Under the pieces are notes generated by a model. It was not told where the DNA came from and made no database searches. It saw only the letters and a program-made list of their open reading frames with translations. 64,000 bases of DNA from Membranipora membranacea (taxonomy: Eukaryota > Bryozoa > Gymnolaemata > Cheilostomatida > Membraniporidae): contig OU612065.1 of assembly GCA_914767715.1 (NCBI GenBank), forward strand, positions 32,426,001 to 32,490,000, given 5' to 3'. Numbering within the stretch: the stretch's first letter is position 1; each line of letters starts with the position of its first letter. Shown piece after piece: positions 31,751 to 64,000 of this stretch. The position numbers and the translations under genes were made by a program.

Positions 31751-33419
31751 AAAGTTGCAATCCCTGTTTAATGATTGTTCGATGACATGGCACACAGATA
31801 TAAAACAGCTTAAACTGTTTTAAAGTCATTTTCAGGGCTCAGTGCAATGTTTAAGTTACAATGGGAGGTCTACATTTTATTAAGAATCACCACATTTTCT
31901 TTTGTCTGGGAAAGAGAATTTTTGTTTTTGTTAAAACCTTGAATTATTTTTTTCTTAATTTCAGATATTTTTGACTTCGGATTTAACCACAAACTATGTG
32001 TTATGTCGCACTTTTTTGTTTCTGTTTTGGTGGCATTATTCATAATTTATCATAATCATAATTAATCTGCACTTTGATTGTCTTAGTGAAGTCTATAAGG
32101 TATCCAAACAACAGCATGTCTGTCTAAATGTTTACTCTCACTTCATGTTCCGCAGAATTTAGATGATTTTTAATCCATGATCAGTGCACTATGATGCATT
32201 TGAATTTTTGTTGATTAATTTTGTACACAAAACCTGTTGGAGACTGGATTCTAAAGCTGGAAAGAGGATATTTTTTATCATTTCATACACGCTCCAACCT
32301 TTTCACCTTTTCTCATCTTACAGTTGTAAAATCACCAGCATTTTGGTGGAAGTATTATGCAGATTTGAGACATGTGATAGATGATAGAGTTTATTCTTCT
32401 TCCTCATATGCAACAAATTTGACCAAGGGAATTTAAAAAAATAACTCTATCTAGATAAAATTTACCCAGAAGCGTTATACACTTTTTTAAGTTTAAAAAA
32501 TTGAATTATTGTTGCAGAACTAGCTGCCTGACAGAATGCTGCTTTGATCTTTATGAATGGTCTTGCACACTGCACATCCCATATATATACTCTGATATCA
32601 AATATCAACAGAAGAAAATATCCGTACTGGTGAACATTGTAATACCCTATATGTATCTCTTATTGGCAATAACTAAAGCACTTTTACTGATTGCAATTTG
32701 GAAAAGTAATTCCCACAATTGATTATTTGGGCATCAGGCAACATAAGATATTTTGCAAACAAATTGTCTAGGAAAGTTAAGCGATGAGAAATACGACCAC
32801 CCAACTTCTACTTGTCTGTATATATTAAAATTCATCATTCTAATGTCTTAGGCTCGTAACCCTGACTCACGTTAGTGTCAAAAGTGACCAATGACAATGC
32901 AACGTACCGAAAAGATGCGTCTCAAACATAGTCAGTCAAACAACTCGTTAACTAGTTAAGTATAAATCAGCATAACCCTTTATCTTAAGTGATAAATGCA
33001 AAACTTCAAGTAAGGTCAATATTTTAATTGCAGCAAAAAATCATTTGAGGTCTTGTACAAGTAAATGTTTTGAAGTTTCAGACAAAAATACAATGTGGTG
33101 ATAAATAATACATGGTGAATCCTATCCTTGTTGCTTAAATATTGCATTGATAAATTAATTAATAAAACTGTATAGGGATTATGAAATTCATTTGTTTGAT
33201 CCTCCTGTTGTAATAAGATATGTGCTACAGGTCATTTGATAGATTTAATCTCATTTGTAGATTGATTTCTTCAAAATGGTTTAACCTGTTATTTATCTGT
33301 GTATGATGTCATCTCATTATAATCAGATTTATGTATTGTTCAGACTAAAAGCTCACAAAAATGATATGTGTATTTATTCTAGATAACATTGTAGTTGTTA
33401 CCTGTTTAGTTTAACTGAG

Positions 33420-33867
33420 TTATCCAAAAAGCTTATCGAGTCCCTTCACAGCTTGATCAGCAACAAATCCTGCTGCTCCACTTTTCACTGCCCCTTTTAC
33501 GACTGCAGAAACAACTCCAGCTTCTGTCTGTGAAACAGCTGTAAGGATAAATGAGAACATATATCTAATATGAGCTCATTCTCGATTTCTTTCATGACAT
33601 ACAATGGGGGGGGGGGGGGGGAGGAAACAGGCTAAGTTTGATGTATTGTAAAAGCTTCAGCTTTTGTCTGAGTCAAAGCGGGATTGCAGATGAGAATATA
33701 TAATTGATAGGTGGTTTTTTTCTGTGTAGAAAAAACACTTAAATCGGACAAAAGACCAGTGATCAGCATGTGAGATCTTATATCTTATACATGGTTTATT
33801 GATATTTGAACTTTTTAAACTTACCAATTGAAGCGATAAGCATTGAGATCAGTACAAATACCTTCAT
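33420..33867 (-). CDS. Secreted cationic helical peptide precursor, isoform A (unit 1)
   Basis: Coding exons on the minus strand are 33867-33825 (43 nt) and 33538-33420 (119 nt incl. stop), with GTAAG donor and ACAG acceptor; 53 residues. A non-coding first exon lies at about 34127-34085. Residues 1-15 or 1-21 are a signal peptide (MKVFVLISMLIASIAVSQ..., cleavage after SIA or TEA). The remaining 32 residues start GVVSAVVKGAVKSG and end ADQAVKGLDKLFG; five... four Lys and two Asp give net positive charge, hydrophobic residues recur every 3-4 positions, and the terminal Gly could be an amidation donor. No Cys. This profile fits linear helical antimicrobial or membrane-active peptides; I do not recognise a named family. 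It is transcribed away from the plus gene at 38437, 4 kb apart. Stop is followed by a spliced 3' UTR (donor at 33401). Confidence 0.85.
33606..33621. repeat. Poly-G/poly-C tract in the coding-region intron (unit 1)
   Basis: An uninterrupted run of about 16 G on the plus strand (C in the transcript) lies in the intron between signal and mature exons, about 70 bases before the acceptor's exon. It is conserved with different lengths in all four minus-strand genes (also near 43099, 54522 and 63870) and absent from the plus-strand genes. Confidence 0.95.
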
Positions 33868-34152
33868 TATGTTTTATCTGGAGAGAGAATGAAACAATTA
33901 AAACTGATGTCTGTAACAGCCTAACCCGAAAACAAAATATGTACCACATTTCTATACAATACATGAGGTGTAGACAATAGTTTATGACCCACTCTGTAAT
34001 TTCAAATCACAAGACTCAAGTTAATTTAAATGTCAGCTTCAAGATATGAGATATGCAGGTTCACAGTTTGAAAGAAATACTTACAGCTAGCTCCGAGTTC
34101 TGTGAATTGATATGTTTGTGGAGAACTGAGTGATTGCTGTTAGTTGAAGCTG

Positions 34153-34161
34153 CTTTATATA
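34153..34161 (-). promoter_or_regulatory. TATA box of isoform A gene, unit 1
   Basis: TATATAAAG on the minus strand; a TCAGTT initiator-like motif with its A at about 34127 lies some 34 bases from the start of the box. The same TATA, TTCAACTAACAGCAATCACTCAGTT arrangement precedes every intact family member. The second minus-strand copy is at 43633-43641. Confidence 0.75.
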
Positions 34162-34314
34162 TGGAATATTTTCATTAGAACTGCCAAACCACCTGGAAGT
34201 ATTCTATATTCGGAAATATGTGATCAAATAAAATAGTTGTTTACCATTTCTCATTTCCGTAAATGGCATGCCATCTTTTATTTCCACATGTTGTGATAGT
34301 TGATATGAATATTG

Positions 34315-35175
34315 CAGACCAAAAAAGCCGCGATTCTTTTGCTGTAAGAAAATCTAACCAAAAATGCCTGTGAACCGGATAAACTGATTATTTGCCTAAT
34401 GCTAACTAAACAGAAGCATATGCCTTAAAAATAAAAATGATGTAGAAATTAATGCCATGTCATATGTATTTTTTGACGGAAGTTATGAGGGAAACCATTA
34501 ATATGATGTTACAGTGTAATTGGTAACGGAACAGGATAGCGTGTCATGCTGGATAGTTTATGTATCAGGGATGAACAAAGTATTGTCACATTCTAAATAT
34601 TATTATTACTCCATGAACAGAAAAAAAACCTCAAATCAAATCATTATAAACACCCTAAAATACCAAAACCACAGAAGCAAAAACCTTGAAGATAAAGAGG
34701 ATATGCAAAATTACACCATGTCATATGATCGTTTTGTGGAAGTGATTTGGGAAACCATTAATTGCTGGTAATGTAATGGTTCAATTGGTAATTGAACAGG
34801 ATACCAAGTTCTGTTGGATAGTTGAAGTATCAGAGAAGGGCAAAAATTATCATTTGTCGTAAAAAATGTAATGGTTGATGATTATTGCAGACCAAAAATT
34901 CCGCAGTGATTTCTGTTTTATCACACTGTATAACAAACTGTCAGAATTGAATTGCCAAGTGCTAAAAACAAAAGCCCTTACATTTTAATGATAAATTAAG
35001 GAAAAAAAATAATGGGTTAAGGCAAAAAGGATATGCAAAGTTATGTCATGTTGCATGTTGTTTGTTTCATGGAAGTGATTGGGAAAACCATTATTTTTTG
35101 GTAAAGTTATGGTGTAATTGAGCAAGATACAGGTCCTGTTGGATGGTTGAGGTTTCAGTTAGGGGGAAAAATTGG
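34315..35175 (-). repeat. Diverged upstream modules of isoform A gene
   Basis: Three related blocks (about 34315-34600, 34640-34870, 34880-35175) each contain ACCAAAAA.(T/G)CCGC, ATGCCATGTCATATG-like, GGAAGTGAT..GGGAAACCATTA and GG(T)AA..GGAACAGGATA segments. A further relative lies at 30240-30500. They sit upstream of the gene in its own direction. An 83-codon frame runs through one (34520-34771) but has no ATG at its start and is best explained by the repeat. Confidence 0.6.
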
Positions 35176-35931
35176 TCATTGCCTTCTCATCGAAACTAAA
35201 TTACAAGGCTTAAGGGTCATGAATAGGAAAACAGAAAAAACTGCTGCTCAAATCTCAATGCTATTATTGTACACAACTTTTTCAAGTAGTCTATTTTACC
35301 AGATTTTCGATTGTCACTAATTAGAACACTTACCGACCCACCAACCTGACCATTCACAACAAGCGTTATACATGACTGTCTGATGGTAGAGATAATGGAA
35401 CATAAAATATAAAATAGTTTTAATTCTTATGCTGAGTATCTTTACAATGAATTGTGAACATAGACTTTATAATAAACCTAGACAGGAAACCATAAATAGC
35501 TGATGTGAGGCACTACGAGCAACATAACGACATTGGAAGGTGTAGAAGCATAGGTGTTATCATTGATTTACTGTCCATAATCCAGGTTTTTTGTTTAAAG
35601 CTCAACCAAATTTGATTGTAATTTTAGTTTTAGAATGGCTTTACAATCAGCAGCATCTTTCCGATAACGTGATTTCATATCTTCTTCAAAAAACGTTGTC
35701 CAAAAAATTAGTATCAATATCTTAACGACAAGCTGATAAATCTATGGTGATCTTCAAACTCAAAATCTGATCAAAATTGATCGAGTCATCAATAAAATCC
35801 CTGCCATATGAGCTGCAAGTCAATTATAACACTGCTACTATACCTTCCAATGTCGTCAATTTGCCCAACAATTTAATGCCTCAGTGCCTCAATGCTAAGG
35901 CTCCATATAGTGTCCTCTCTAGGTTCATTTT

Positions 35932-36255
35932 TAAACACTTTGTTTGAGGCTGCTCTTTTGTATCACATCTTATTCTCCATATTTTATTCTATCATGTGAG
36001 GGATTTTGATCATCATCTTATCTGTGTGATTATTAGTGTATTAAATTAACTACTATGTCAAATGTCTATGGTTGTGACATACCCCAGGGGAAACATCTGC
36101 TTATTCCCAATGCCGATTGAAGGCAATCACCCTGGAAGTTTGAAAGGCCATAACTTCCTCAATATTTGGATTCTAAAGCTGAAAATTGCCCACATGATAG
36201 AATGAAATATGGAGAATAAGATTTGATACAAAAAAGCAGCCTCAAACAAAATCTT
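35932..36255. mobile_element. Palindromic element, deleted form (unit 1)
   Basis: Arms GTTTGAGGCTGCTCTTTTGTATC and the complementary GATACAAAAAAGCAGCCTCAAAC flank a shortened centre. Units 2 and 3 keep a longer form with a tRNA-like centre. Confidence 0.7.
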
Positions 36256-36859
36256 CAAGTCTATATATGATTGTGGCATGTATCAGTGTAATACTGCAAA
36301 GATTTGCATCACAGTATTGCATGGCATAATAATCTGCATCAATCTGCGATTGCTGCTCATATTTTTACTATGTGTTTGTGTAATTATTCAATTAAAACAA
36401 CAACCAATATTTCAAAAAAAGTGATTTGAAATCTCAATCAGATTTTTACCGAAGTTTTCTGTTTTTTTATCTTTGAAATATCAATCAGATTCTTACCGTA
36501 GTTTCAAAGTTAATTAGCTAAAAGCTAAACAATAGCTGCTGAAGGCTTTCTATACTCAAGCAGCCCATCATTATTCGTATTGTGAATTTCAAATAAATAA
36601 AGTAAAGTATAAGTAAATAACTGGTGATACTGCATATATCATATCATTGTGATACAAAGATGATTATGATAGGAGTACAAACAAAACATGCATGTAAAAG
36701 ACCTTTAGCTGTCCTTCATACTGGAGAGAAAGCAAATTCAACTCGACCTTTTCTGTAGGTGTGTGGTTTGATCATACTACTATTCGGGAGAATACCAGCC
36801 TATATACAAGTTAGCGGGATCATTATGATAGAGAAAGAACATTGTTAACCTCCTTCACT

Positions 36860-36887
36860 TATCGATATGTGCATGTACATATCGATA
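36860..36887. promoter_or_regulatory. Near-perfect palindrome TATCGATATGT..ACATATCGATA
   Basis: An 11-base arm on each side of a 6-base centre, strictly conserved in all three units (about 46686 and 57030). It lies 180-205 bases upstream of the 70-codon ORF. It may be a dimer-binding site or a hairpin remnant; neither is shown. Confidence 0.45.
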
Positions 36888-37064
36888 TGCCCATAATGCG
36901 AGCAGAAATTCGAACCTGGTCGAGTTAAATAATTAATTTGTTAGTTAAGGTTTATTATACCGACTGTCCATATTAAGTTTTCGAAAACTATTTCAACAAT
37001 TGTACTATTATGATCTTATAAAACTACTGCGTAACATGTTTGGTATTCTGGTTACTGAGTCGGT

Positions 37065-38157: not shown

Positions 38158-38166
38158 TATATAAAG
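38158..38166 (+). promoter_or_regulatory. TATA box of isoform B gene, unit 1
   Basis: TATATAAAG followed 34 bases later by a CACTCAGTTTTG initiator-like context (A at 38192). The non-coding first exon then runs to 38234 with donor GTAAGT. Equivalent boxes are at 47908-47916 and 58328-58336. Confidence 0.75.
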
Positions 38167-38436
38167 AAGCTTCAACTAACAGCAATCACTCAGTTTTGCA
38201 CACTCATATCAATCCTCGGAATTCAAAGCTAGCTGTAAGTACACGTTTTAACCAGTGAACAATGTATTACCTCATGTCTTGAAGTTGTCATTTGAAGCAG
38301 CTTGAGTCTTGAAGTTACAATTCACCCGGATGATGATGAATCATTGTCTCAATACAAATATACACATTTCTTACAGGTTGAGCTTTTTCAGGCAGCAGTT
38401 TGAATTGTTGCATTTTCCCTATTTCAGATCAACAAA

Positions 38437-38818
38437 ATGAAGGTATTTGTACTGATTTCATTCCTAATTGCTTCAATTGGTAAGTTTACAAAAGTTAAAA
38501 AATCAACAAACAAAGATGTGAAGTCTTTAACATCTTATTGCTGATCATTATGCTTTTGCCCGATTTTAGATTTATTTTTGCAGAAAATTCAACTACATGT
38601 GTACTCAATTGTATTTCATGATGCCCTATATCACATGAGAAAGAAAAATCAAATATAAATTAGCACATATTGGATATATGTTCTCATCTATCTTTCCAGC
38701 TGTCTCACAGACTGAAGCTGGGGTTGCTTCTAAAGTCATTAAAGGGGCAGTGAAAAGTGGAGCAGCGGGATATATTGCTGATCAAGCTGTGAAGGGACTC
38801 GATAAGCTTTTTGGTTAA
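38437..38818 (+). CDS. Secreted cationic helical peptide precursor, isoform B (unit 1)
   Basis: Coding exons 38437-38479 and 38700-38818 give 53 residues. A signal peptide (MKVFVLISFLIASIAVSQ...) occupies the first coding exon plus the start of the second. The 32-residue remainder starts GVASKVIKGAVKSG and ends ADQAVKGLDKLFG: five Lys, two Asp, no Cys, regular 3-4 hydrophobic spacing, terminal Gly. It differs from isoform A at five positions, all in the N-terminal 19 residues (A/V, K/A, I/V, Y/F, I/V), giving it one more Lys. Full gene model: non-coding exon 38192-38234; exon 38428-38479; exon 38700-38836; 3' UTR exon from 39445 to about 39565 with acceptor TTTCTTTTTCAG and AATAAA at 39545. 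The stop is 18 nt before the last junction, so the spliced 3' UTR should not trigger decay. Candidate host-defence peptide; function unproven. Confidence 0.85.
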
Positions 38819-39834: not shown

Positions 39835-40135
39835 AAACGGTAAAAATTGGCCAAAAATTGAAAAAAAAACTTGGCCCCAAATCCAAAACCTGAATTGACT
39901 AAGTAAAACTTGATCCCTTATATAAGACTTGGCCCAAATACAAAACTTGACCCCATATACTTAACTTGGGCGAAAATAGCAAAAAATTAATTATTAAAAT
40001 TTGGCCAAAAATACGAAACTTGGTCACGTTGCAAGAAACTTGGTCCAAATCAGTAAGACTTGTCCCCAAATATAAGACTTGGCCCAATATACTATTTGGT
40101 CCAAAACACAAGATGTTGCCCAAAACACTTAACTA
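39835..40135. repeat. AAACTTGGCC-type degenerate short repeat
   Basis: Units of roughly 17-20 bases such as ACTTGGCCCAAATACAAA and ACTTGACCCCATATAC recur about a dozen times. The same family is found at 24640-24745, 26950-27025 (inverted), 50325-50625 and 59975-60285, so it marks the right end of each tandem unit. Confidence 0.85.
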
Positions 40136-40404: not shown

Positions 40405-40409
40405 TTCTT

Positions 40410-40520
40410 ACTGTAGTTTTCGATGTGCTGAGTGATTGCTTTTAGTTGAAGCTTCTTTATATACAAAACATTTTACATTTTTCCTTTGAATTTGCAAAAC
40501 CAACTGGAAGTATTCTATAT
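40410..40520 (-). promoter_or_regulatory. Orphan peptide-gene promoter, unit 2 (and 50905-51015, unit 3)
   Basis: Minus-strand TATATAAAG (complement at 40455-40463; 50949-50957 in unit 3), then TTCAACTAAAAGCAATCACTCAGC, matches the peptide-gene core promoter. Downstream lies the 78-codon frame, not a peptide exon. Confidence 0.6.
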
Positions 40521-42911
40521 TTGGTAAATTATAATCAAATACATAATTTATTTCCTGTTCTTGTGGAAAAAATAACATGCCGCCTTTTATTGTTACTGAT
40601 TGTGATGATTAATATGCGTATTGCAGACCAAAAATGCCGCAATTATTTCTACTGTAATTAATGTGAGCCAAAAAAATCCTGATGAGCCAGATAACAAGTT
40701 TACATTGCCTCATGCTAAAAACACTGATTAAAAGGATATGCAAAATATTGCCATGTCATGTGTTTTGTTTTGTTTTATCGAAGTAATTGAGGAAACAATT
40801 AATTGCTGGTAATGTTGTAGCGAAATCAGTTATGAAACAAGATGTCAACTCCTGTTTTGAAGGCAAAAAATTGTCATATTCCTGTCATGTCTTATTAAAC
40901 TTGAATAAAAAGGCTCAACGGTCATCAACAGAACAACTTAAAAAAATGTTATTATATTATAACAAACATCGCATTTTCAACTTTCTTTGTGAGTAGTTCG
41001 TTTTTCCACATTGATGTCTGTTAGAACACTTCTTTCCTCCTTCGTTCCGAATTCAAGACATTCATATTAAACCTTGTAAGGACTCAACATTATGCTATAC
41101 TTGGATGTTTGAAGGTAGATACAGTGAGAGATTTTGTTTTTATGCCAAAGCGTATCTTTTTGCAACAATTTGCTACTTTCTCTTGTAGTAGTTCAAAGAT
41201 TTCCATCACGCTTTTGCATGACATAGTTTTCTGCATAAATCTGCCCATTGCTGCTCAACTGTATACAATGCGGTCCATAAATAAGCAGCTATTCAAATAA
41301 GATACATCAGATTTCAGAATTTAAAAAAAATGTGTGTAATTGCAATCTAGCTAAGTTAGACATCTGGTTAAAATTTATGGCCAACTGAATTATTCTGGCA
41401 AAATATCATATTTGTGATCTGACTCTGTATTTGTTCAACCACAATGAAGACCCTGCTAAAGATTAATGCGAACTAAAATACATTAAATTTTATAATTTGT
41501 TGGCAAATTCGAAGCCAGATTGATCTGGCAATTGCTGTACTTTGACACTACATGCTATAAGGTGTCCAAACAACAGCATGACTGTCTAAATGTTTACTCT
41601 CACTTCATGTTTCACAGAATTTACATGATTTTTAATTCATGATCAGTGCACTATGATGCATTTGAATTTTTGTCGATTAATTTTGTACACAATACCTGTC
41701 GGAGACTGGATTCAAAGGCTGGAAAGAGGAAATCTTTTATCATTTCATACACGCTCCAACCTTTTCACCTTTTCTCATCTCACAGTTGTAAAATCACCAG
41801 CATGGAAGTATTATGGAGATTTGAGACCTGTGATTGATGATAGAGTTTATTCTTCTTCCTCATATGCAACAAATTTGACCAAGGGAATTTAAAAAAATAA
41901 CTCTATTTAGATAAAATTTACCCAGAAGCGTTATACATTTTTTTAAGCTTAAAAAATTGAATTATTGCTGCAGAACTAGCAGCCTGACAGAATGCTGCTT
42001 TGATCTTTATGAATGGTCTTGCAGACTGCACATCCCATATATATACTCTGATATCAAATATAAACAGAAGAAAATATCCGTACTGGTGAACATTGTAATA
42101 CCCTATATGTATCTCTTATTGGCAATAACTAGAGCACTTTTACTGATTGCAATTTGGAAAAGTACTTCCCACAATTGATTATTTGGGCATCAGGCAACAT
42201 AAGATATTTTGCAAACAAATTGTCTAGGAAAGTTAAGCGATGAGAAATACGACCACCCGGATGTCATCTATTTTCATGTTCTATATGGTACGACAACTTC
42301 TACTTGTCTGTATATATTAAAATTCATCATTCTAATGTCTTGAGCTCGTAACCCTGACTCACGTTAGTGTCAAAAGTGACCAATGACAATGCAACGTACC
42401 GAAAAGATGCGTCCCAAACATAGTCAGTCAAACAACTCGTTAACTAGTTAAGTATAAATCAGCATAACCCTTTATCCTAAGTGATAAATGCAAAACTTCC
42501 AGTAAGGTCAATATTTTATTTGCAGCAAAAAATCATTTGAGGTCTTGTACAAGTGAATGTTTTGAAGTTTCAGACAAAAATACAATGTGGTGATAATTCA
42601 TACATGGTGAATCCTATCCTTGTTGCTTAAATATTGCATTGATAAATAAATTAATAAAACTGTAGAGAGATTATATAATTCATTTGTTTGATCCTCCTGT
42701 TGTAATAAGATATGTGCTACAAGTCATTTGATAGATTTAATCTCATTTGTAGATGGATTTCTTCAAAATGGTTTAACCTGTTATTTATCTGTGTATGATG
42801 TCATCTGATTATAATCAGATGTATGTATTTTTCAGACTAAAAGCTCACAAAAATGATATGTATATTTATTCTAGATAAAATTGTAGTTGTTACCTGTTTA
42901 GTTTAACTGAG

Positions 42912-43348
42912 TTATCCAAAAAGCTTATCGAGTCCCTTCACAGCTTGATCAGCAACAAATCCTGCTGCTCCACTTTTCACTGCCCCTTTAACGACTGCAG
43001 AAACAACTCCAGCTTCTGTCTGTGAAACAGCTGTAAGGATAAATGAGAACATATATCTAATATGAGCTCACTCTCGATTTCTTTCATGACATACAATTGG
43101 GGGGGGGGGGGGAGGAAACAGGCTAAGTATCATATCTTGTAAACGCTTCAGCTTTTGTCTGAGTCAAAGCGGGAATGCAGATGAGAATAAATATTTGCTA
43201 GGTGGTTTTTTCTGTGTGAAAAAATCGGACAAAAGACCAGTGATCAGCATGTGAGATCTTATATATTATACATGGTTTATTGATACTTATACTGTTTAAA
43301 CTTACCAATTGAAGCGATAAGCATTGAGATCAGTACAAATACCTTCAT
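42912..43348 (-). CDS. Secreted cationic helical peptide precursor, isoform A (unit 2)
   Basis: Coding exons 43348-43306 and 43030-42912. The predicted 53-residue protein is identical to the unit 1 isoform A product; the mature exon differs from it by one silent change (a Val codon). Non-coding first exon about 43607-43565, TATA box 43633-43641. The intron carries the poly-G/C tract. Divergent partner is the plus gene at 48187, 4.3 kb away between start sites. Confidence 0.85.
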
Positions 43349-45432
43349 TATGTTTTATCTGGAGAAAGAATGAAACAATTAAAAATGATTCTGTAACAGC
43401 CTAACCCGAAAACAAAATATGTACCACATTTCTATACATTACATGAGGTGTAGACAATAATTTATGACCCACTCTGTAATTTCAAATCACAAGACTCAAG
43501 TTGATTTAAATGTCAGCTTCCAGATATGAGATATGCAGGTTCACAGTTTGAAAGAAATACTTACAGCTAGCTCCGAATTCTGTGAATTGATATGTTTGTG
43601 GAGAACTGAGTGATTGCTGTTAGTTGAAGCTGCTTTATATATGGAATATTTTCATTAGAACTGCCAAACAAACTGGAAGTATTCTATATTCGGAAATATG
43701 TGATCAAATAAAATAATTGTTTCCCATTTCCCATTTCCGTAAATGGCATGCCATCTTTTATTTCCACATTATTGTGATAGTTGATATGAATATTGCAGAC
43801 CAAAAACGCCGCGTTTCTTTTGCTGTAAGAAAATCTAACCAAAAATGCTAGTGAACCGGATAAACTGATTAATTTGCCCAGTGCGAACTAAACAAAAGCA
43901 TATGCCTAAAAAATAAAAAGGATGTAGAAATTAATGCCATGTCATATGTATTTTTTGATGGAAGTTATGAGGGAAACCATTAATGTGATGTTACAGTGTA
44001 GTTGGTAACGGAACAGGATAGCGTGTCGTGCTGGATAGTTCATGTATCAGGGATGAGCAAAGTATTGTCACATTCTAAATATTATTATTACTCCATGAAC
44101 AGAAAAAAAACCTCAAATCAAATCATTATAAACACCCTAAAATACCAAAAACACAGAAGCAAAAGCCTTGAAGATAAAGAGGATATGCAAAATTATACCA
44201 TGTCATATGATCGTTTTGTGGAAGTGATTTTGGAAACCATTAATTGCTGGTAATGTAATGGTTCAATTGGTAATTGAACAGGATACCAAGTTCTGTTGGA
44301 TAGTTGAAGTATCAGAGAAGGGCAAAAGTTATCATTTTGTCGTAAAAAATGTAATGGTTGATGATTATTGCAGACCGAAAACTCCGCAGTGATTTCTTTT
44401 TTTATCGAACTGTTGATGTGATTAATAACAAAATTAAATTGCCGAGTGCTAAAAACAAAAGCCCTTACATTTTAATGATAAATTAAGGAAAAAAATGATG
44501 GGTTTTGGCAAAAAGGATATGCAAAATTATGTCATGTTGTATACTTTGTTTCATGGAAGTGATTGGGGAAACCATTATCTTTTGGTAAAGTTATGGTGTA
44601 ATGGAGCAAGATACAGGTCCTGTTAGATGGTTGAAGTATCAGTTAGGGGGAAAAATTGGTCATCGCCTTCTCATCGAAACTAAATTACAAGTCTTAAAGG
44701 TCATGAATAGGAAAACAGAAAAAACTGCTTCTCAAATCTCAATGTTATTATTATACACAACTTTTTCAAGTACTTTTCAAGTACTACAAGTAGTCTCTTT
44801 TACCAGATTTTCGATTGTTACTAATAAGAACACTTACCGATTCACCAACCCGACCATTCACAACAAGCGTTATACATGACTGTCTGATGGTAGAGATAAT
44901 GAAACATAAAATACAAAATAGTTTTAATTCTTATGCTGAGTATCTTTACAATGAATTGTGAACATAGACTTTATAATAAACCTAGACAGGAAACCATAAA
45001 TAGCTGATGTGAGGCAATACAAGCAACATAACGACATTGGAAGGTGTAGAAGCATAGGTGTTATCATTGATTTACTGTCCATAATCCAGGTTTTTTTGTT
45101 CAAAGCTCAACCAATTTTGATTATAATTTTAAAATGGCTTTACAATCAGCAGCATCTTTCCGATAACGTGATTTCATTTCTTCTTCAAAAAACGTTGTGC
45201 AAAAAATTAGTATCAATATCTTAACGACAAGCTGATACATCTATGGTGATCTTCAAACTCAAAATCTGACCAAAATTGATCGAGTCATCAATAAAATCCC
45301 TGGTATATGAGCTGCAAGTCAATTATAACACTGCTACTATACTTTCCAATGTCGTTAATTTGCCCAAGAATTTAATGCCTCAGTGCCTCAATGCTAAGGC
45401 TCCATAAAGTGTCCTCTCTAGGTTCATTATTA

Positions 45433-48186: not shown

Positions 48187-48568
48187 ATGAAGGTATTTGT
48201 ACTGATTTCATTCCTAATCGCTTCAATTGGTAAGTTTACAAAAGTTAAAAAGTCAACAAGCAAAGATGTGATGTTTTTAACATCTTATTGCTGATCATTA
48301 TGCTTTTGCCCGATTTAAGATTTATTTTTGCAGAAAATTCAACTACATGTGTACTCACGTGTATTTCATGATGCCCTATATCACATGAGAAAGAAAAATC
48401 AAATATAAATTAGCACATATTGGATATATGTTCTCATCTATCTTTCCAGCTGTCTCACAGACTGAAGCTGGGGTTGCTTCTAAAGTCATTAAAGGGGCAG
48501 TGAAAAGTGGAGCAGCGGGATATATTGCTGATCAAGCTGTGAAGGGACTCGATAAGCTTTTTGGTTAA
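48187..48568 (+). CDS. Secreted cationic helical peptide precursor, isoform B (unit 2)
   Basis: Coding exons 48187-48229 and 48450-48568. The predicted protein is identical to unit 1 isoform B; the only coding change is silent (ATTGCT to ATCGCT) and the 119-base mature exon is unchanged, whereas the adjacent intron differs at several positions. TATA box 47908-47916; non-coding first exon about 47942-47984; conserved 3' UTR donor after the stop. Confidence 0.85.
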
Positions 48569-49326: not shown

Positions 49327-50097
49327 ATATACTTTTTATTGGCATCCAAAGTCATCTCATTCGAAATTTTTTGCACTCAGTGCCAGAAAACTATTTTTTT
49401 TAAAACAAAAAAGGAGAAACAGAAGGGAAATAATATCATCAATGATGTTGGTCAAGTCGATAATATATGGTTGAGAAGTAAAGTTTTGAATGAACTGAAC
49501 TTCTCTTTAGATCTCAAATGTAACGGTAAAGAATTGTATGTAGCAGAAACTTTGTATCTCAGATTGTCTGTATGATATAAATGTAAATGTTTATCACGAA
49601 AATTGAACTTGGTAGTGTTTTTAAATCCTCTATATATAAATGGAGGTGTTAAAAAATTGTTTATCTTATGCGCAAAAAGTGAAGTGAAATAACAAACAAG
49701 CTTAGGAAGAGGTAGGAGTTGTAATGATTGTGTAATGGATTCGGTTGAAATGAGATAATACAGGATGTAATGCACATTGGCGATAATGCGTAAAGCCCGT
49801 TTTTGCAACAAAAATAATCTATTGAGGGCATTATTGCAGGACAAGTTGCCAAAGATATGGGTACCATATATAAGGTGACAATAGATAAACTGGAAGTAAA
49901 ATGTGCGGGCACTTGCTATATCCAAGAAGTATCTCAAACTTTGAAGTAGGTAAACATTCCGTTGTACCTTTTTATATACATACTCTAGATGATCCTGCCA
50001 TGAAAGCGAGTCATTCAACACAAAACCCAGAAGCCTTGTAGTTCATTGAATTGTCATTTGAATTTGAATTTCCATTGTCATTTGAATTTGAATATTC
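49327..50097 (-). mobile_element. 5'-truncated LINE insertion in unit 2
   Basis: Units 1 and 3 read straight through TAATTT/GAATTGTCATTGG where unit 2 has 771 extra bases. On the minus strand, 50021-49452 encodes the C-terminal end of a non-LTR reverse transcriptase: SWQDHLEYVYKKVQRN, LIYGTHIFGN and LFLLQKRALRIIANV match the conserved region after the polymerase core in Jockey/CR1-like LINEs. The upstream catalytic part and endonuclease are absent. Short direct repeats (ATTGTCATTTGAATTTGAAT) occur at its right end. Confidence 0.8.
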
Positions 50098-52460
50098 GAA
50101 TTGTCATTGGTCACTTTTGACACTAATGTGAGTCAGGGTTATGAGCTCAAGACATTAGAAAACGCAATCTCTCATGATGAAATTTAATATATGCAGACAA
50201 GTTGTTGTACCATACAGAAAATGATAATAGATGTTTTCCGGGTGCTCAGAAGTGATCATATTTCTTATCGCTTAACTTTCCCAAAGGATTTTTGCAAAAT
50301 CTCTCCGCCCGAATGCAACACTTGGTCTCAAACGGTAAAAATTGGCCAAAAATGGAAAAAAACTTGGCCCCAAATCCAAAACCTGAATCCACTAAGTAAA
50401 ATTTGATCCCTTATATAAGACTTGGCCCAAATACAAAACTTTATCCCATATACTGAAACTTGGGCGACAATAGCAAAAATTTAATTATTAAAATTTGGCC
50501 AAAAATACGAAACTTGGTCACGTGGCAAGAAACTTGGTCCAAATCAGTAAGACTTGGCCCCAAATATAAGACTTGGCCCAATATACTATTTGGTCCCAAA
50601 CACAAGATGTTGCCCAAAACACTTAACTAATGTACAGGGAGAGAAGGAGGCTACACCTTTATTACATGTTAATCTCTGACGATAAGCTTTGTAAAATCCA
50701 AAGTGTGATGGGCGCATCTAGGGCAGTCCTACAATATATATAGCTTTCAACCCTATGGTTTCTATACTGGACAGCTTTGTGAGCTGAAGGCTTGAGTTCA
50801 TTATTCTTCCAAATTTGAGTGCTTAGGCCTATACCGGTCTGTTGGATCTTCTGGGACTTTGCTGTCGGATATTCGACCTGCTTAAAGTAACAATACAATT
50901 CTTACTGTAGTTTTCGATGTGCTGAGTGATTGCTTTTAGTTGAAGCTTCTTTATATACAAAACATTTTACATTTTTCCTTTGAATTTGCAAAACCAACTG
51001 GAAGTACTCTATATTTGGTGAATTATAATCAAATACAAAATTTGTTTCCTGTTCTTGTGGAAAAAATAACATGCCGCCTATTATTGTTACTGATTGTGAT
51101 GATTAATATGCGTATTGCAGACCAAAAATGCCGCAATTATTTCTACTGTAATTAATGTGAGCCAAAAAAATCCTGATGAGCCAGATAACAAGTTTAAATT
51201 GCCTCATGCTAATAACACTGATTAAAAGGATATGCAAAATGATGCCATGTCATGTGTTTTGTTTTGTTTTATGGAAGTAATTGAGGAAACAATTAATTGC
51301 TGGTAATGTTGTAGTGAAATCAGTTATGAAACAAGATGTCAACTCCTGTTTTGAAGGCAAAAAATTGTCATATTCCGGTCATGTCTTATTAAATCTGAAT
51401 TAAAAGGCTCAACGGTCATCAACAGAACAACGTAAAAAAATGTTCTAATCTTATTATATTATTACAAACACCGCATTTTCAACTTTCTTTGTAAGTAGTT
51501 CGTTTTTCCACTTTGATGTCTGTTAGTAATTAGAACACTTCTTGCCTCCTTCGTTCCGAATTTGGACACATCCATATTAAACTTTGTAAGGGCTCAACAT
51601 ATGCTATACATGGATGTTTGAAGGTCGATAAAGTGAGAGATTTTATTCCTATGCCGAGGCGTATCTTTACAACAATTTATTACTTTCTCTTGTAGTAGTT
51701 CATAGATTTCCATCACGCTTTTGCATGACAAAGTTTTCTAGGCGGCGGCCATGTTCAGTGCCAAGTTGCTCTCAGTTTGCGGCCCTTGTTTGAAACTTTG
51801 GGTGTGTAATTGCAATCTAACTAAGTTAGACGTCTGGTTAAAATTTATGGCCCACTGAATAATTATGGCTTAATATCATATTTGTGATCTGACTCTGTAT
51901 TTGTTCAACCACAATGAAGACTTCCTCAATTTGACAAGCCCTGCTAAAGATTAATGCGAACTAAGATACATTAAATTTTATAATTTGTGAGCGACTTCGA
52001 AGCCACATTAGCCCCTATTATCCTAGCCTAGCCAGTAAATCTCAGTCAAATAATTAATTGAAGCCTTCCCTAAACTACATTGAAATGCAGACTTGCATCT
52101 CCAATCAACTGGTTATCACTGAATTATTTATGTTTGGTAAAAAGTGTAAGTTTAATTCTTTGATATGGAAGCGATCGATTTGGGACAAATTGTTTTAATT
52201 TAGTCATGCAGTAGAATCTTGACCAATGTATACAACAGTGTCACAAGACATAAAATGCACACCAAAAATGATGCCGGGAAGTAATATGCAGAGTTAGCAT
52301 ACCAATGGTTTCGTCATTTATCGAGATAGAATAACCATATCAGATATATATTCTAATCTGTGTTCTAGCTTTTACACCTTTGATATGTCATGATGCCCTA
52401 TATCATGTATAACAGTTTTAGTCAGCACATACTAGGTGTCTTTTCTCATCATCCTTCCAG

Positions 52461-52574
52461 CCGAAACACAGACTGAAGCGGGACTTCCTTCTGTAATTTT
52501 TAAACGGGCAGGGAAAGGTGGATATTTTGTTTCTGATGAAGCTGATAGGGACTGGATGAGCTTCATTATTAAAG
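52461..52574 (+). pseudogene. Decayed third peptide-gene paralogue, mature exon (unit 3)
   Basis: After a CATCCTTCCAG acceptor the frame reads AETQTEAGLPSVIFKRAGKG and then a diverged SDEADRDWMSF end. It shares with the unit 1 copy the one-base loss that destroys the family ending, so the lesion predates the unit duplication. No signal exon found. Confidence 0.75.
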
Positions 52575-54334: not shown

Positions 54335-54453
54335 TTATCCAAAAAGTTTATCGAGTCCCTTCACAGCTTGATCAGCAACAAATCCTGCTGCTCCACTTTT
54401 CACTGCCCCTTTTACGACTGCAGAAACAACTCCAGCTTCTGTCTGTGAAACAG
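54335..54453 (-). pseudogene. Isoform A gene lacking its 5' half (unit 3)
   Basis: The mature-peptide exon is intact and encodes the same 39 residues as units 1 and 2 (one silent Lys-codon change), with acceptor and poly-G/C intron tract. At about 54587 the sequence jumps from GTCTGAGTCAA to TATGCAAAATTATGTGATG, which in unit 2 are separated by about 1.35 kb (43168-44515). The deletion removes the signal exon, the non-coding exon and the TATA box. Confidence 0.85.
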
Positions 54454-55481
54454 CTGTAAGGATAAATGAGAACATATATCTAATATGAGCTCATTCTCGA
54501 TTTCTTTCATGACATAAAATGGGGGGGGGGGGGGGGAAACAGGCTAAGTATCATATATTGTAAAAGCTTCAGCTTTTGTCTGAGTCAATATGCAAAATTA
54601 TGTGATGTTGTATACTTTGTTTCATGGAAGTGATTGGAGAAACCATTATCTTTTGGTAAAGTTATGATGTAATGGAGCAAGATACAGGTCCTGTTGGATG
54701 GTTGAAGTATCAGTTAGGGGGAAAAATTGGTCATCGCCTTCTCATCGAAACTGAATTACAAGTCTTAAAGGTCATAAATAGGAAAACAGAAAAAACTGCT
54801 TCTCAAATCTCAATGTTATTATTATACACAACTTTTTCAAGTAGTCTATTTTACCAGATTTTCGATTGTCACTAATTAGAACACTTACCGACCCACGAAC
54901 CTGACCATTCACAACAAGCGTTATACATGACTGTCTGATGGTAGAGATAATGAAACATAAAATATAAAATAGTTTTAATTCTTATGCTGAGTATCTTTAC
55001 AATGAATTGTGAACATAGACTTTATGATAAACCTAGACAGGAAACCATAAATAGCTGATGTGAGGCACTACGAGCAACATAACGACATTGGAAGGTGTAG
55101 AAGCATAGGTGTTATCATTGATTTACTGTCCATAATCCAGGTTTTTTGTTCAAAGCTCAACCAATTTTGATTATAATTTTAAAATGGCTTTACAATCAGC
55201 AGCATCTTTCCGATAACGTGATTTCATTTCTTCTTCAAAAAACGTTGTGCAAAAAATTAGTATCAATATCTTAACGACAAGCTGATAAATCTATGGTGAT
55301 CTTCAAACTCAAAATCTGATCAAAATTGATCGAGTCATCAATAAAATCCCTGCTATATGAGCTGCAAGTCAATTATAACACTGCTACTATACTTTCCAAC
55401 GTCGTTAATTTGCCCAACAATTTAATGCCTCAGTGCCTCAATGCTAATGCTCCATATAGTGTCCTCTCTAGGTTCATTATT

Positions 55482-57233: not shown

Positions 57234-57446
57234 ATGTCTTTACTGTTATCATTACCAGCATCTGTTTTTCTATGGTTTTTATGTGATACCACTCTTGTAA
57301 ATATAAATGTCCAACTTTATAACGAGGCAAACAATGGGGTGTATAAGCGTGTTAAAATCTATGCAATACTATACAGATACACACAAATCATTGTGAAGAT
57401 TCTCGGCATTATAATTAAATTCATTCTACATTGGATCTCTCACTGA
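57234..57446 (+). CDS. Possible small hydrophobic protein (unit 3)
   Basis: 70-codon frame differing from unit 2 by one residue near the N-terminus (L instead of M at position 4). The TATA motif upstream is altered to TATGAAA here, so expression may be reduced or absent. Confidence 0.3.
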   Translation: MSLLLSLPASVFLWFLCDTTLVNINVQLYNEANNGVYKRVKIYAILYRYTQIIVKILGIIIKFILHWISH

Positions 57447-58606: not shown

Positions 58607-58988
58607 ATGAAGGTATTTGTACTGATTTCATTCCTAATCGCTTTAATTGGTAAGTTTACAAAAGTTAAAAAGTCAACAAGCAAAGATGTGAAGTTTTTAA
58701 CATCTTTTTGCTGATCATTATGCTTTAGCCCGATTTTAGATTTATTTTTGCAGAAAATTCAACTACATGTGTACTCACGTGTATTTCATGATGCCTTATA
58801 TCACATGAGAAAGAAAAATCAAATATAAATTAGCACATATTGGATATATGTTCTCATCTATCTTTCCAGCTGTCTCACAGACTGAAGCTGGGGTTGCTTC
58901 TAAAGTCATTAAAGGGGCAGTGAAAAGTGGAGCAGCGGGATATATTGCTGATCAAGCTGTGAAGGGACTCGATAAGCTTTTTGGTTAA
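58607..58988 (+). CDS. Secreted cationic helical peptide precursor, isoform B (unit 3)
   Basis: Coding exons 58607-58649 and 58870-58988. The mature exon is base-for-base the same as in units 1 and 2. One residue differs in the signal peptide (S13 to L). TATA box 58328-58336; non-coding exon to about 58404, where the donor context changed from AGCT/GTAAG to AGCG/GTAAG, still functional-looking. Its minus-strand partner is broken, so in this unit only isoform B should be made. Confidence 0.85.
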
Positions 58989-60508
58989 CTCAATTCAACA
59001 AATCAGGTAACAACTACAATGATAACAATAATAAGTTGACATATCAGTTCGGTGTGGTTTTAGTCTGAACAGGTGGAAGCCTTCGGTAGGCAGGTCTGGC
59101 AGCTAGATTTTCTGAAATATTTTCAGATTCAGAAAATTCAGAGCTCTTTTGGGTAAAAATTATGTGAAGTGTTAGAACTTGTACCCCTTCCCATCTATGA
59201 GTTTAAAGGTATTCATGGGGCCTAGTGCTGTGCCATCCTATCAAGCTTCCACTTCAAAATAATTTTTACTACCATTCTTTTCCACTTCAGTCCAAAATAA
59301 ACGTAGTTCCATTGTCAGGAGACATTATTGTTTACATTAGCAGATGACTTCATTTATGAATTTATTTATTTCTCTAAAGTAGATAGAAGTGATAGTCTAT
59401 TGGGCTGGTACAGCACTAGGCATCTGGTACTGCAGAACAAGCTTCCAGATAACTTATTACAACAGGAAAATCAAACAAATGATTTTCATAATCTCTTTAC
59501 AGCTTTCTCTCTTTTTCAGGACTCAATGCAATATGTAAGCCACAAGGAAAAGATCTACCATGTATTAATGATTACCACATCGTCGTTTTGTACAAGACCT
59601 CAATGATTTTTCGTTACAAATAAAATACTGACTTGACTTGAAGTTTAGCATTTATCTTCTGAGAGAAACGTATAATTTACTTTATAATTAACTCATTCTG
59701 TGTTGTTTCAGTTTTTATTCATTAGGGATGCACCTTTTCGGTAATTTGAATTGTCATTGGTCACTTTTTACACTGATGTGAGTCAGGGTTATGAGCTCAA
59801 GACATTAGAAAACGCAATCTCTCATGATGAAATTTAATATATGCAGACAAGTTGTTGTACCATACAGAAAATGATAATAGATGTTATCCGGGTGCTCAGA
59901 AGTGATCATATTTCTTATCGCTTAACTTTCCCAAAGGATTTTTGCAAAATCTCTCGGCCCGAATGCAACACTCAAACGGTAAAAAATTGGCCAAAAATGG
60001 AAAAAAACTTGGCCCAAAATCCAAAACCTGAATCCACTAAGTAAAATTTGATCCCTTATATAAGACTTGGCCCAAATACAAAACATGACCCCATATACTG
60101 AAATTTGGGCGAAAATAGCAAAAATTTAATTATTAAAATTTGGCCAAAAATACGAAACTTGGTCATGTGGCAAGAAACTTGGTCCAAATCAGTAAGACTT
60201 GTCCCCAAATATAAGACTTGGCCCAATATACTATTTGGTCCCAAACACAAGATGTTGCCCAAAACACTTAACTAATGTACAGGGAGACAAGGAGGCAACA
60301 CCTTTATTACATGTTAATCTCTGACGATTAGCTTTGTAAAATCCAAAGAGTAATGGGCGCATCTAGGGCAGTTCTACAATATATATATAGCTTTCAGCCA
60401 TATGGTTTCTATACTGGTTTGTGAGCTGAAGGCTTGATTCAATTATTCTTGCAAATTTGAGTGCTTAGGCCTATACCGGTCTGTTGGATCGTCTGGGACT
60501 TTGCTGTC

Positions 60509-61859
60509 TAGTGATGGCAAATTGTCAGATTTTGGCGAGACGGGACGAGACCGAGACAGCAAGAAAATTCGGGACGAGACCGGGACGAGACCGAGACATA
60601 TAACGATGCCGATAAAACATTCTTCAGATATCACAATTTAAAAGAATGGTGGATATTCATTCACTATGACTAGTGCAATCAGCTTATAGTACATTTGCAT
60701 TACAAAATAAAGTACACCTATGCTGTAGTATGTTGGATAGGCCCTGGGGGCCGATGTCAGGGAGACATGCCCCAATGCACCTATGAGAGTTGTGTAACAA
60801 AAGGCCTTTTGTTTGGTGAACAAAGGAGTACAATGGCAGGCAAAGTGTGCTTGTCTGAATGCATGTTGGATTCATGTGATTGCATGCTGGGGGGCGTGTA
60901 TGCTAGGCTCAGCTCTCTACTTTTGCTACACTCATTTGTGGGTATACACAATCCACCCGCTGCTATGATATATAGGAACCACTGGTAAAGGGTATGACAC
61001 AACTGTACTTTATTTTGTAATGGATTCAAGTTGTAACTTATGATCTATAGCAATAAGGATCTATGTTGAAACATTTATTGAATTATAGAAAGCCACACGC
61101 TCGTGCAGATTTCCACTAATTCTTGCAAATTAAATTTTGTATGAGTATCAGCCTGCCACACATGATTGTCATTGCCCAAATTCATACTCATGATTTATGG
61201 GTGTAATCCTACTGTAATCCTCCTCAGCCAATCTAAAACATAGGCCTATAGTGATAACTAAATAAAATACTGTTAAACCAAGGAGAAGCTGTTTCTTCTT
61301 GTTTATTATACCAACCAGTCCAGTGATTCAGCTTCTGGATATGCTTAGGCTCAACTATCTCCTCATATTTATACAATTTGATACCCCATTAATCATTGTA
61401 TCCCTTCTCCCTCTTGCCCCAGGTCCAAATCAATGAGAAAGCTCCACATTGATCAACCATTCCATCTTTTTAACAGAAGTTGTTTACATAGATATGGCCT
61501 TGACTTATCAATCAAAACAGACAGCCGATCAATCAAATCTGACAGCCAATCAGATAACATTTCCGTTAAATAATTGCAGCAAAAGCATGACTAATAACTA
61601 TCATTCCATTATATTATAGTCAGAATTTCATGTGTCATCATATAATAACCGTGGTGTAGTGAGTAAGAGCATGGACTGCTGATCACTAGGTCACTGGTTC
61701 GAGTCTGGGTGAAGGCAATGTTTTGACCAGCTACTACCATTTACAATGCCAGTAGTCTCGACCTGGAGTAAGAGTTGTGTGTCTCGACGAGACGAGATAC
61801 TGTCCCGAGGAGACAAGTCTCGCGAGACCGGGAATTGTCCCGTCTCGTTGCCATCACTA
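60509..61859. mobile_element. Non-autonomous hAT-type DNA transposon
   Basis: Ends TAGTGATGGCAA and TTGCCATCACTA are exact 12-base inverted repeats flanked by the 8-base duplication TTGCTGTC (60501-60508 and 61860-61867). Removing it restores the sequence seen in units 1 and 2. Subterminal GGGACGAGACCG-type repeats at both ends are typical of hAT elements. No transposase frame is present in 1351 bp. Confidence 0.92.
61649..61712 (+). repeat. tRNA-like segment inside the hAT-type element
   Basis: TGGTGTAGTGAG (61652-61663) and GGTTCGAGTCT (61696-61706) match box A and box B with tRNA-like spacing. It may be a SINE inserted in, or captured by, the transposon. Confidence 0.5.
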
Positions 61860-61905
61860 TTGCTGTCGGATATTCGACCTGCTTAAAGAAACAATACAAT
61901 TCTTA

Positions 61906-62640
61906 CTGTTTTGCAGCCAATGGAGCACAGAAAAATATTTGTAATAACACCCTATTTGTTAGTTAAAACATGTTGCCCTGCTCAAATATGCATTCAAAAG
62001 TGAAGTTGTGGATCTCCAACAAGAGATGAGACAACTAGAAGAATTGCCTGTGAGCAGATTTTGTCAGCTGTTGTGCGCTCCTACTTCTTGGTTATTTGTT
62101 TAAGGTGCACTGATACTCACTCAGTATATGCATGTGCTCCATTTATAAGCTTGAACCTAAGCTTGTTTTTTTCTGACTGCTCACCTTACACTTTTGCATG
62201 TTCCCCTCAAAGACTACACCAAGACACATGAAGTCTAAAGCAATTTATTAACAGGCAGCCAGTTCTACAATTAATAATGCAATATTTTTACACCAAAATT
62301 ATTCAAGGCACCTAAAAGCAAAAATTATATATCATGTATTGTATGATCCTTCTTTGGTATCAACATAAGGTACCAATTGCACAACTATAGTCAGTTTCCA
62401 TTTCCATAGATCTTTTAGTTGTCAGGAAGCATTGTGCAAAAGTCGTTGACTAAATCATCAAGTTATGCTGAGAGGTTTTGCCATCGCCATTCCCAAAAGT
62501 GAAAGAGATGAAGTTTACTGATATTACACAGTACCTTACCAAAATGTACATCAAATATGAGGAGAAGACAGGCTACACAAACTATAGAAACATTTTAGCC
62601 AAAACACAATTAATTTGTTCAATGTAAAAGCTTTTGCATT
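61906..62640. other. Diverged junction between units 3 and 4
   Basis: Homology to the start of units 2 and 3 stops after ACAATACAATTCTTACTG; the promoter-like motif expected next is missing. AT-rich sequence without a recognisable gene. Confidence 0.5.
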
Positions 62641-64000
62641 ACTGCTGAAGGACTAGCTACAAGACATTGATTTGATCTGTGTTTGGTCAGTAAAACCTCG
62701 CAGCCTTAATTTATCAGAACAATAATAATATTTCCATTCGAGTCATAATTGACCTAAATTGTTAACAAAAGCAATTGTTCATACTGGTGAAAATTATAAA
62801 ACCATATATATAAACCTTCTATTGGTAAGTCGTCAAGCAAATTTACTGATTGCATTTTGTAAAAGTAACTCTTAATATTGATTATATTGGTATCAGGCAT
62901 TCTAAGAGAGGTTGCATAATTTATCTTGGAACCTGAAATGATAAGACTAATTCGTGTCCTGGAAAACATCTCGTTTCAATTTCATAATTGTACGACACCT
63001 TCTACTTTTCCGTGTACATTAAAATTCACCGTAGAAGATTGTGTTTCTAATGTCGTAAATCAGAATTATGTTAATGTCAAAAGTGACCAGCAAAGATTCC
63101 AGGTGACGGGGTAGACAACTCAATATTTTGTACCTCTCTGACAATTTTGTATATAAAAAAATATTCCTTTTAATATATACAAGAGTTGTATGCAAAATAT
63201 AGACACTCAGACTACACAAATTAACTATAAAATACCAAGTATTATTCTTTGCTCCTAACTGATAAATTGGAAACTTCATCGTTGTAAGTCAATATTTTAT
63301 ATATTTGGAACAAAAAATATAGCAAAGTTTTGTACAATACAATGTATTTAAATGTTTCAGACAAAACAGTGCGGTGATACTCATGGTTTACTTCTCATCG
63401 TGGTTTACATATTGCATTGAATCCTGAAAAATGAAGAAAACTGAATAGAAATTACTATAATCATAGGTTTGGTGATCACATTGTAGTAAGTAACCTAAAG
63501 ATACATGCTACAGGACATTTGATGGAAAAATTCTGATTTGTAGATTTATGTATCCAAACCAGTTTAACCTGTTATGTTCATTAAAATCAGGTGTATGTTT
63601 GTTCAGACTAAGATTTCACTAAATTATCATGTCAAAATATTATTGTTACTTTTCTAGTTATTACCTATTTTGGTTTACCAAGTTAACCAAAAAGCTTATC
63701 GAGTCCCTTCACAGCTTGATCGGCAACAAATCCTGCAGCTCCAGTTTTCACTGCCCCTTTAACGACTGCAGAAACAACTCCAGCTTCTGTCTGTGAAACA
63801 GCTGTAAGGATAAATGAGAACATATATCTAATATGAGCTCACTCTCGATTTCTTTCATGACATACAATAGGGGGGGGGGGAGGGAACAGGCTAAGTATCA
63901 TGTATTGTAAAAGCTTCAGCTTTAATCTGAGTCAAGGGGGTATGCAGATGAGAATAAATATTTGAGAAGTGTTTTTTTTCTATGTAGAAAAAGCTCTTAA
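62640..64000. repeat. Start of an older, diverged tandem unit 4
   Basis: Sequence such as TACTGGTGAA.ATT.TAA.ACCATATAT and GGCATCAGGCA-like motifs aligns with 32510-33720 of unit 1 but with many substitutions and indels, clearly more than between units 1-3. Confidence 0.75.
63683..63801 (-). CDS. Isoform A peptide gene, mature exon only (unit 4, runs off window)
   Basis: The complete 119-base second coding exon with stop is present; the signal exon should lie about 90 bases or more past the right edge. Relative to unit 1 it has silent changes at Gly, Ala and other codons and one replacement (Ser to Thr in the GAVKTG segment), despite strongly diverged flanks. The intron begins with the same AGCTGTAAGGATAAATGAGAAC complement and the G-tract near 63870. 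Confidence 0.8.

Follow-up and report, generated by a model that had tools for sequence, protein, structure and literature searches.

What do the small repeated genes in a 64,000-nucleotide stretch of chromosome 1 of the cheilostome bryozoan Membranipora membranacea (positions 32,426,001–32,490,000; hereafter the window) encode, and what might their products do? A first-pass annotation, made from the letters of the window alone, had described seven intact mature-peptide exons and five complete genes for secreted, Cys-free peptides. We found both counts to be right for the window, and we regard it as close to certain that these are real secreted-peptide genes. They belong to a large superfamily of secreted Cys-free peptides, apparently undescribed, of which the window contains a small part and which extends to three other chromosomes of a genome that the published genome note, in the portion available, gives as 339.4 Mb in 11 chromosomes.

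The seven mature-peptide exons (exon 3 of each gene; three on the plus strand and four on the minus strand; Table 1) have a frame that stays open from the splice acceptor to the stop codon, and all end in ADQAVKGLDKLFG. Five of them are accompanied within the window by a signal exon, whose ATG lies 263–329 bases upstream of the mature exon. In these five complete genes a GTAAGT donor and a CAG acceptor allow a phase-1 splice, joined through an Ala codon split after its first base (G, then CT), which yields a 53-amino-acid precursor consisting of a signal peptide and a mature peptide, as annotated. A TATATAAAG box is also present in all five, and the GTAAGT behind it would close a non-coding exon 1. 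Directly 3′ of the stop codon follows a sequence resembling a splice donor, in the window AGGTAAC or AGGTAAT, and because such a site, matched with a loose pattern, was found in 31 of 32 full-length copies, an intron in the 3′ untranslated region is likely. Each strand of the window has its own type of peptide: the plus-strand exons (type P) encode GVASKVIKGAVKSGAAGYIADQAVKGLDKLFG, and the minus-strand exons (type M) encode GVVSAVVKGAVK(S/T)GAAGFVADQAVKGLDKLFG. For the last minus-strand copy, at 63801, the signal exon was recovered from extended sequence just past the end of the window, which makes this gene complete as well. The copy at 54453 lost its signal exon through a deletion with a junction that self-comparison places near 54588; ~1.35 kb present at this point in two other units is absent from it.

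To place these genes within their family we searched the genome assembly (339,339,785 bases in 18 contigs) with protein queries and counted mature-exon matches at E ≤ 0.001. Relics and partial matches are part of the tally, and all counts are lower bounds. The census came to at least 114 matches on chromosomes 1, 6, 7 and 10. Chromosome 1 has at least 31 in a main cluster that includes the window (32.46–33.18 Mb) and at least four at 37.31–37.33 Mb; chromosome 10 has at least 18 at 6.32–6.44 Mb; and chromosome 6 has one at 19.97 Mb, a second match on this chromosome reaching only E 0.19. At least 19 matches lie at 10.03–10.81 Mb on chromosome 7, and the same chromosome carries the largest related branch, with at least 41 matches at 1.12–2.91 Mb, all on the plus strand, partly spaced at ~6.1 kb, and none of the 41 containing an internal stop. 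Weak relics, three at 37.3 Mb on chromosome 1 and two in the window, stand outside the census.

We read ~60 copies closely and know the remainder as matches only. A tabulated set of 37 copies was drawn from chromosome 1 and the 10.7-Mb array of chromosome 7, leaving out two chromosome 1 matches (33048690 and 33063722) in which the exon start is abnormal or the frame is shifted. Within this set a signal exon accompanies 28 copies, plus two more chromosome 7 copies on a separate reading, and the last residue is Gly in 32, the other five being frameshifted or truncated. Genes are complete for 20 of the 31 matches in the main chromosome 1 cluster and for all four at 37.3 Mb. Among the further loci that we read, this was true of 20 of 20 at 1.1–2.9 Mb on chromosome 7, of both plus-strand copies on chromosome 10 and of four of the five on its minus strand, the signal exon of the fifth not being found within 601 bases. 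No signal exon was found in ~1.6 kb upstream of the chromosome 6 copy, and a copy at 10.55 Mb on chromosome 7 has a visible signal exon, an acceptor that departs from the pattern and a peptide end other than Gly. Throughout the family, a phase-1 intron separates the signal exon from a single mature exon, the last residue of which is usually Gly.

The mature part of these genes bears the mark of purifying selection. We computed the ratio of nonsynonymous to synonymous change (dN/dS) on the mature part using Nei-Gojobori counts pooled over pairs, including for types M, T, P and D only the 28 of the 37 tabulated copies that have the full 39-residue exon and excluding broken copies. The pooled ratios, which are descriptions rather than tests because the pairs share copies and are not independent, were 0.13 within type M (45 pairs), 0.17 within type T, a third type from the same genomic cluster as M (28 pairs), and 0.10 between M and T (80 pairs). 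One type from the 1.1–2.9-Mb branch of chromosome 7 is represented by eight copies, among which we counted 29 synonymous and 0 nonsynonymous differences summed over 28 pairs, and one group of four copies had no differences at all. Ratios were 0.52–0.64 for the chromosome 7 10.7-Mb, C10b and C10a groups (4, 5 and 2 copies, respectively), 0.51 for M versus P (30 pairs) and 1.19 for D versus M (40 pairs). A ratio of 0.67 for a six-copy chromosome 7 group was disregarded as inflated because peptides of unequal length were compared without gaps. The peptide is thus held constant within the well-sampled types and has shifted between types, and the purifying selection on its mature part excludes chance frames and implies real genes. 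Together with the gene anatomy, this selection bears out the original description of a secreted, Cys-free peptide family.

The two parts of the precursor differ in how far they have diverged. Mean identity among 11 rows was 0.72 in the signal region versus 0.49 in the mature region, with the signal region more alike in 52 of the 55 pairs; a signal more conserved than the mature region is the usual pattern in defence-peptide families. In the M–P, M–T, P–T and D–P comparisons, similarity was also higher in the signal and mature exons than in the intervening introns. This was not seen for D–M or D–T, for which the introns align over 55–59 bases only.

Database searches agreed with the initial impression that the peptides belong to no named family. 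Pfam gave no credible match for two window precursors or for the 13 and 19 rows of two family alignments (A1 and A2), the matches at E 0.023–0.34 (one of them the DIM protein at E 0.24) being judged chance or signal-peptide matches. We judged likewise the matches of 13 precursors to NCBIfam (E 0.02–0.58) and those to the sequences of PDB (E 0.44–5, syntrophin among them), neither of which yielded a credible relative. Foldseek found 0 matches in PDB to a model of the P peptide at E up to 10, a 32-residue helical hairpin being uninformative either way, and Rfam at gathering scores had no match in the window. A single-precursor search of a 5.8-billion-protein set produced no candidate, and a search of viral contigs with one precursor from the 10.7-Mb array returned 84 pattern matches and no relative. 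When the protein set was searched with profiles of A1 and A2, both retrieved the same eight unnamed uncultured fragments; scoring covered the 7,984 and 7,988 candidates with the most shared words, and distant relatives could be missed. One fragment, P0002, is itself a row of A2, which makes its A2 score partly a matter of construction, and was found independently with A1; another, P0003, matches part of two chromosome 10 copies letter for letter. All eight are very like Membranipora genes on chromosomes 7 and 10, and none is of the chromosome 1 type found in the window. They are probably Membranipora DNA in environmental samples, and on that reading the family is known from Membranipora alone so far. 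Six mature and signal strings were absent from the text of openly licensed papers, with description elsewhere possible, and no linear antimicrobial peptide family from a bryozoan was among the matches listed in that literature. In its main text, one review of bryozoan chemistry uses no word that starts with 'peptide', and two reviews of antimicrobial peptides from marine invertebrates leave Bryozoa unmentioned.

What kind of peptide do these genes specify? Eleven representative peptides are 21–39 residues long, with net side-chain charges between +3 and −5; a further chromosome 10 copy reaches +5. The charge is +1 to +3 in the types of the 10.7-Mb array and +3 to +5 in the chromosome 10 types; for the window types it is +2 or +3, with 4 or 5 Lys among 32 residues, which makes their earlier description as Lys-rich a generous one. 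Hydrophobic residues make up 42–56% of the window, 10.7-Mb and chromosome 10 types that we examined, in which the signal exon is present. Modeled as one full-length helix, the peptides had a hydrophobic moment that did not exceed that of shuffled sequences (p 0.14–0.67, eight peptides), whereas the stretch from residue 14 to the end was amphipathic or nearly so (p 0.002–0.061, eight peptides). The first 18 residues were amphipathic in some peptides (p 0.008–0.34, eight peptides). A bent two-helix, membrane-bound form would fit better than one long helix. A single-sequence AlphaFold2 (AF2) prediction for the P peptide, a moderate, alignment-free model, places helices at residues 2–13 and 16–31 (mean predicted local distance difference test score, pLDDT, 78.2; predicted template-modeling score, pTM, 0.31).

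Processing is predicted at both ends of the mature peptide. The predicted signal cut in most copies falls at (T/I)E(A/S/C)↓G, and the C-terminus is conserved within subfamilies and differs between them (KLFG, AIKG, KIKG and AIEG). Gly closes all 13 rows of A1 and 17 of 20 sampled copies from 1.1–2.9 Mb on chromosome 7, and the copper monooxygenase domain (PF01082), whose family also covers non-amidating enzymes, has 22 exon matches in the genome. The near-invariant Gly and these domains are compatible with C-terminal amidation and with the initial view of the Gly as an amide donor; the three other sampled copies end in Leu. The best structural reading is of secreted, probably amidated, membrane-active peptides with a predicted helix-hinge-helix form.

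Across the four chromosomes the copies form tandem or alternating arrays. Using all matches of three clusters, without three outlying ones at 10.03–10.55 Mb on chromosome 7, we found that orientation alternates at 23 of 30 neighbours on chromosome 1 (shuffle p 0.0005), at 13 of 15 on chromosome 7 at 10.70–10.81 Mb (p 0.005) and at 16 of 17 on chromosome 10 (p 0.00005). As with P and M in the window, the chromosome 10 cluster consists of two different subtypes, one per strand, in nearly strict alternation; one of them carries a Cys directly before the predicted cleavage site. The alternation in three clusters is a point of interest and no proof of a functional pair, because copying of a two-gene unit would yield the same pattern.

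The most likely role, in which our confidence is about half, would be membrane-active host defence or protection of the surface against microbes or foulers. In such a role, signal peptidase would cut most copies at the predicted site, the last Gly would become a C-terminal amide, and the resulting product of 21–39 residues would fold at a membrane into two short helices around a Gly/Ala/Ser hinge, and the differences in charge would adapt each subfamily to its own targets. In favour of this reading count the gene anatomy and purifying selection, the better conserved signal region, the two predicted helices, the amphipathic part from residue 14 on, the net charge of +1 to +5 in the window, 10.7-Mb and chromosome 10 peptides that we examined, the terminal Gly, the copper monooxygenase domains and the high copy number. 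Several findings weigh on the other side. All 20 sampled copies of the 1.1–2.9-Mb branch have a net charge of 0, −2, −3 or −5, and it is within this branch that the eight-copy type free of nonsynonymous differences is found, so that a neutral or acidic product is itself under strong purifying selection. The branch has its signal, gene layout and first residues in common with the cationic branch and is unsuited to cationic lysis. Moreover, the window peptides reach a charge of just +2 or +3, the full-length helix is not amphipathic beyond chance, V, F or R occupies the predicted −1 position in a few copies (leaving the cleavage site less than certain), and three sampled copies lack the terminal Gly. 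The host-defence proposal of the first-pass annotation therefore stays plausible, and its simplest form does not: because the 41-match branch is neutral to acidic, 'cationic antimicrobial peptide' cannot cover the whole family, and it is mainly this branch that keeps our confidence at its present level. Two options follow: the branches act jointly or against separate targets, or the function of the family lies elsewhere, in surface coating for example.

The last of these options deserves a hearing, unlikely as we consider it. Co-secreted cationic and anionic helices might self-assemble into a coat, adhesive or surfactant layer with no direct killing, which would make sense of a neutral-to-anionic branch that resembles the cationic one in its signal exon and first mature residues, of a copy number suited to bulk secretion, and of an Ala plus Gly content of 19–42% (11 peptides). 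Adhesives typically carry Cys, Tyr-rich or repeat motifs, however, and these peptides are very short and have none of them; the two branches, moreover, sit in separate arrays. Another proposal, to which we assign a small probability, is a defence superfamily evolved in bryozoans, in which one kind of signal exon would serve both cationic and anionic amphipathic peptides. In several clusters two subtypes would be kept as alternating divergent gene pairs, and the colony would secrete their products as matched mixtures of two peptides, forming complexes that act on membranes or coat surfaces.

Other readings fare worse. The terminal Gly and a C-terminus conserved within subfamilies would also suit amidated hormones or neuropeptides, but the window precursors contain no KK, KR, RK or RR and release one peptide each, and at least 114 matches on four chromosomes with C-termini that differ by subfamily are unlike a hormone, which makes secreted signaling improbable. 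Still further from the evidence are ice-binding peptides, for which the Ala-rich helical type I antifreeze proteins of fish would be the model: the genes do encode short, Cys-free, Ala-containing helices in many tandem copies, but we saw by eye no 11-residue Thr/Ala repeat, Val and Gly are high, and PDB held no credible match. The notion that the exons are non-functional repeats carried along by a satellite or mobile element, prompted by the several relics and broken copies and by window units that are themselves large repeats, is already largely refuted by the dN/dS of 0.10–0.17 within and between M and T, the 29 to 0 excess of synonymous differences and the uninterrupted frames of the 41-match branch, and we give it next to no weight.

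Table 1. Features of the window. Positions count from the first base of the window; on the minus strand an exon starts at its higher coordinate, and the coding part of each signal exon starts at the ATG.
Feature	Position	Strand	Details
P1 TATA box	38158–38166	+	TATATAAAG; precedes a presumed non-coding exon 1 with its GTAAGT donor at 38235
P1 signal exon, coding part	38437–38479	+	MKVFVLISFLIASI plus one base (phase-1 intron)
P1 mature exon	38700–38818	+	predicted mature peptide GVASKVIKGAVKSGAAGYIADQAVKGLDKLFG at 38720–38815, then stop
P2 signal exon, coding part	48187–48229	+	
P2 mature exon	48450–48568	+	peptide identical to P1
P3 signal exon, coding part	58607–58649	+	MKVFVLISFLIALI
P3 mature exon	58870–58988	+	peptide identical to P1
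M1 signal exon, coding part	33825–33867	-	MKVFVLISMLIASI; TATA box starts at 34161
M1 mature exon	33420–33538	-	GVVSAVVKGAVKSGAAGFVADQAVKGLDKLFG
M2 signal exon, coding part	43306–43348	-	TATA box starts at 43641
M2 mature exon	42912–43030	-	peptide identical to M1
M3 mature exon	54335–54453	-	frame intact, no signal exon (deletion junction ~54588)
M4 mature exon	63683–63801	-	KTG variant; signal exon past window end
Decayed mature-exon relic	31599–31748	+	73% DNA identity
Decayed mature-exon relic	52424–52563	+	72% DNA identity
Promoter relic	30041–30242	-	75% identity
Similar promoter relics	40428–40629, 50922–51123		73–74% identity
Non-coding exon 1 relic	27135–27204	-	70 bases at 93% identity; a peptide exon was not seen behind it
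BEL/Pao-type long terminal repeat (LTR) retrotransposon remains	7109–13081	+	Pfam Pao peptidase in open reading frame 12275–13081; gag-like frames ahead (by eye)
88-base-pair minisatellite	20283–20805		6 copies, 96% matches
15- and 30-base-pair repeats	24634–27008		built on CCAGTGGCC / TTGGCC
TTGGCC-rich stretches	39842–40091, 50337–50618, 59981–60263		adjoin peptide units
196-amino-acid open frame	49452–50042	-	between peptide units; no Pfam match; we take it to resemble the tail of a non-LTR reverse transcriptase

Elsewhere in the assembly, the mitochondrial contig (C18; 14,741 bases) uses genetic code 5, as judged from COX1, in which AGR falls at expected Ser, AAA at Lys and ATA at Met residues; on this ground a tunicate origin of the genome was rejected. 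Its gene order, read by eye from translations, is rearranged, with COX3, ND1 and ATP6 on one strand and ND4, ND4L, ND2, COX1, ND5, ND3, COX2 and CYTB on the other, followed by ND6.

Ribosomal defence peptides appear little studied in Bryozoa, a large marine phylum, and the only bryozoan defence peptide that we found in print, in the portions of the literature available, is a big defensin in Flustra. A family of at least 114 exon matches that is absent from the protein-family libraries that we tried would open a new supply of candidates for membrane activity. It would also lend itself well to studying how clusters of very small genes multiply, stay under selection and change from cationic to anionic. 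For Membranipora membranacea, RNA-seq data are publicly listed (ERR6464929 and SRX1121923).

Among known systems, the insect cecropins share with the window family a short precursor, a signal peptide, a single mature peptide and a helix-hinge-helix layout, which is predicted here; in several cases, according to the part of the source available, they are also amidated at the C-terminus (PMC6929098). Unlike cecropins, the window peptides have neither Trp nor Pro, their N-terminal half is only weakly basic, and their family includes an anionic branch. The strongly basic, amphipathic N-terminal half of a cecropin was not found in P, M, Mt and S (residues 1–18, p 0.054–0.112); the same residues were amphipathic in three types of the 10.7-Mb array (p 0.008–0.026). 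Scans with 2, 13 and 19 precursors found no match to the Pfam cecropin family at E up to 10, a range in which the HMMER filters drop most matches above ~E 0.1. The family thus looks cecropin-like in layout, and membership of the cecropins is unsupported by the sequence tests that we ran.

The dermaseptin-type precursors of amphibian skin combine a conserved signal region with a fast-changing mature peptide, in sets that range from cationic to near-neutral. The window family resembles them in its conserved signal before a changing mature peptide and in having members of differing charge; it differs in lacking the acidic spacer and its dibasic cleavage site, and the Pfam scans of 13 and 19 precursors gave no match. 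Tunicate antimicrobial precursors have an acidic propiece, which is absent from the window family. The styelins and botryllin of tunicates and the linear cationic helical peptides of Ciona are, in the portions of the sources available, marine invertebrate peptides reported to be antimicrobial (PMC9966394, PMC7387483). They come from another phylum. Big defensins are Cys-rich folded proteins, in contrast to the Cys-free and much shorter window peptides. Their likeness to the window family is that they are a defence-peptide family already reported from Bryozoa: transcriptomes of Lophotrochozoa in which big defensins were reported include, in the part of the source available, that of the bryozoan Flustra foliacea (PMC7203481).

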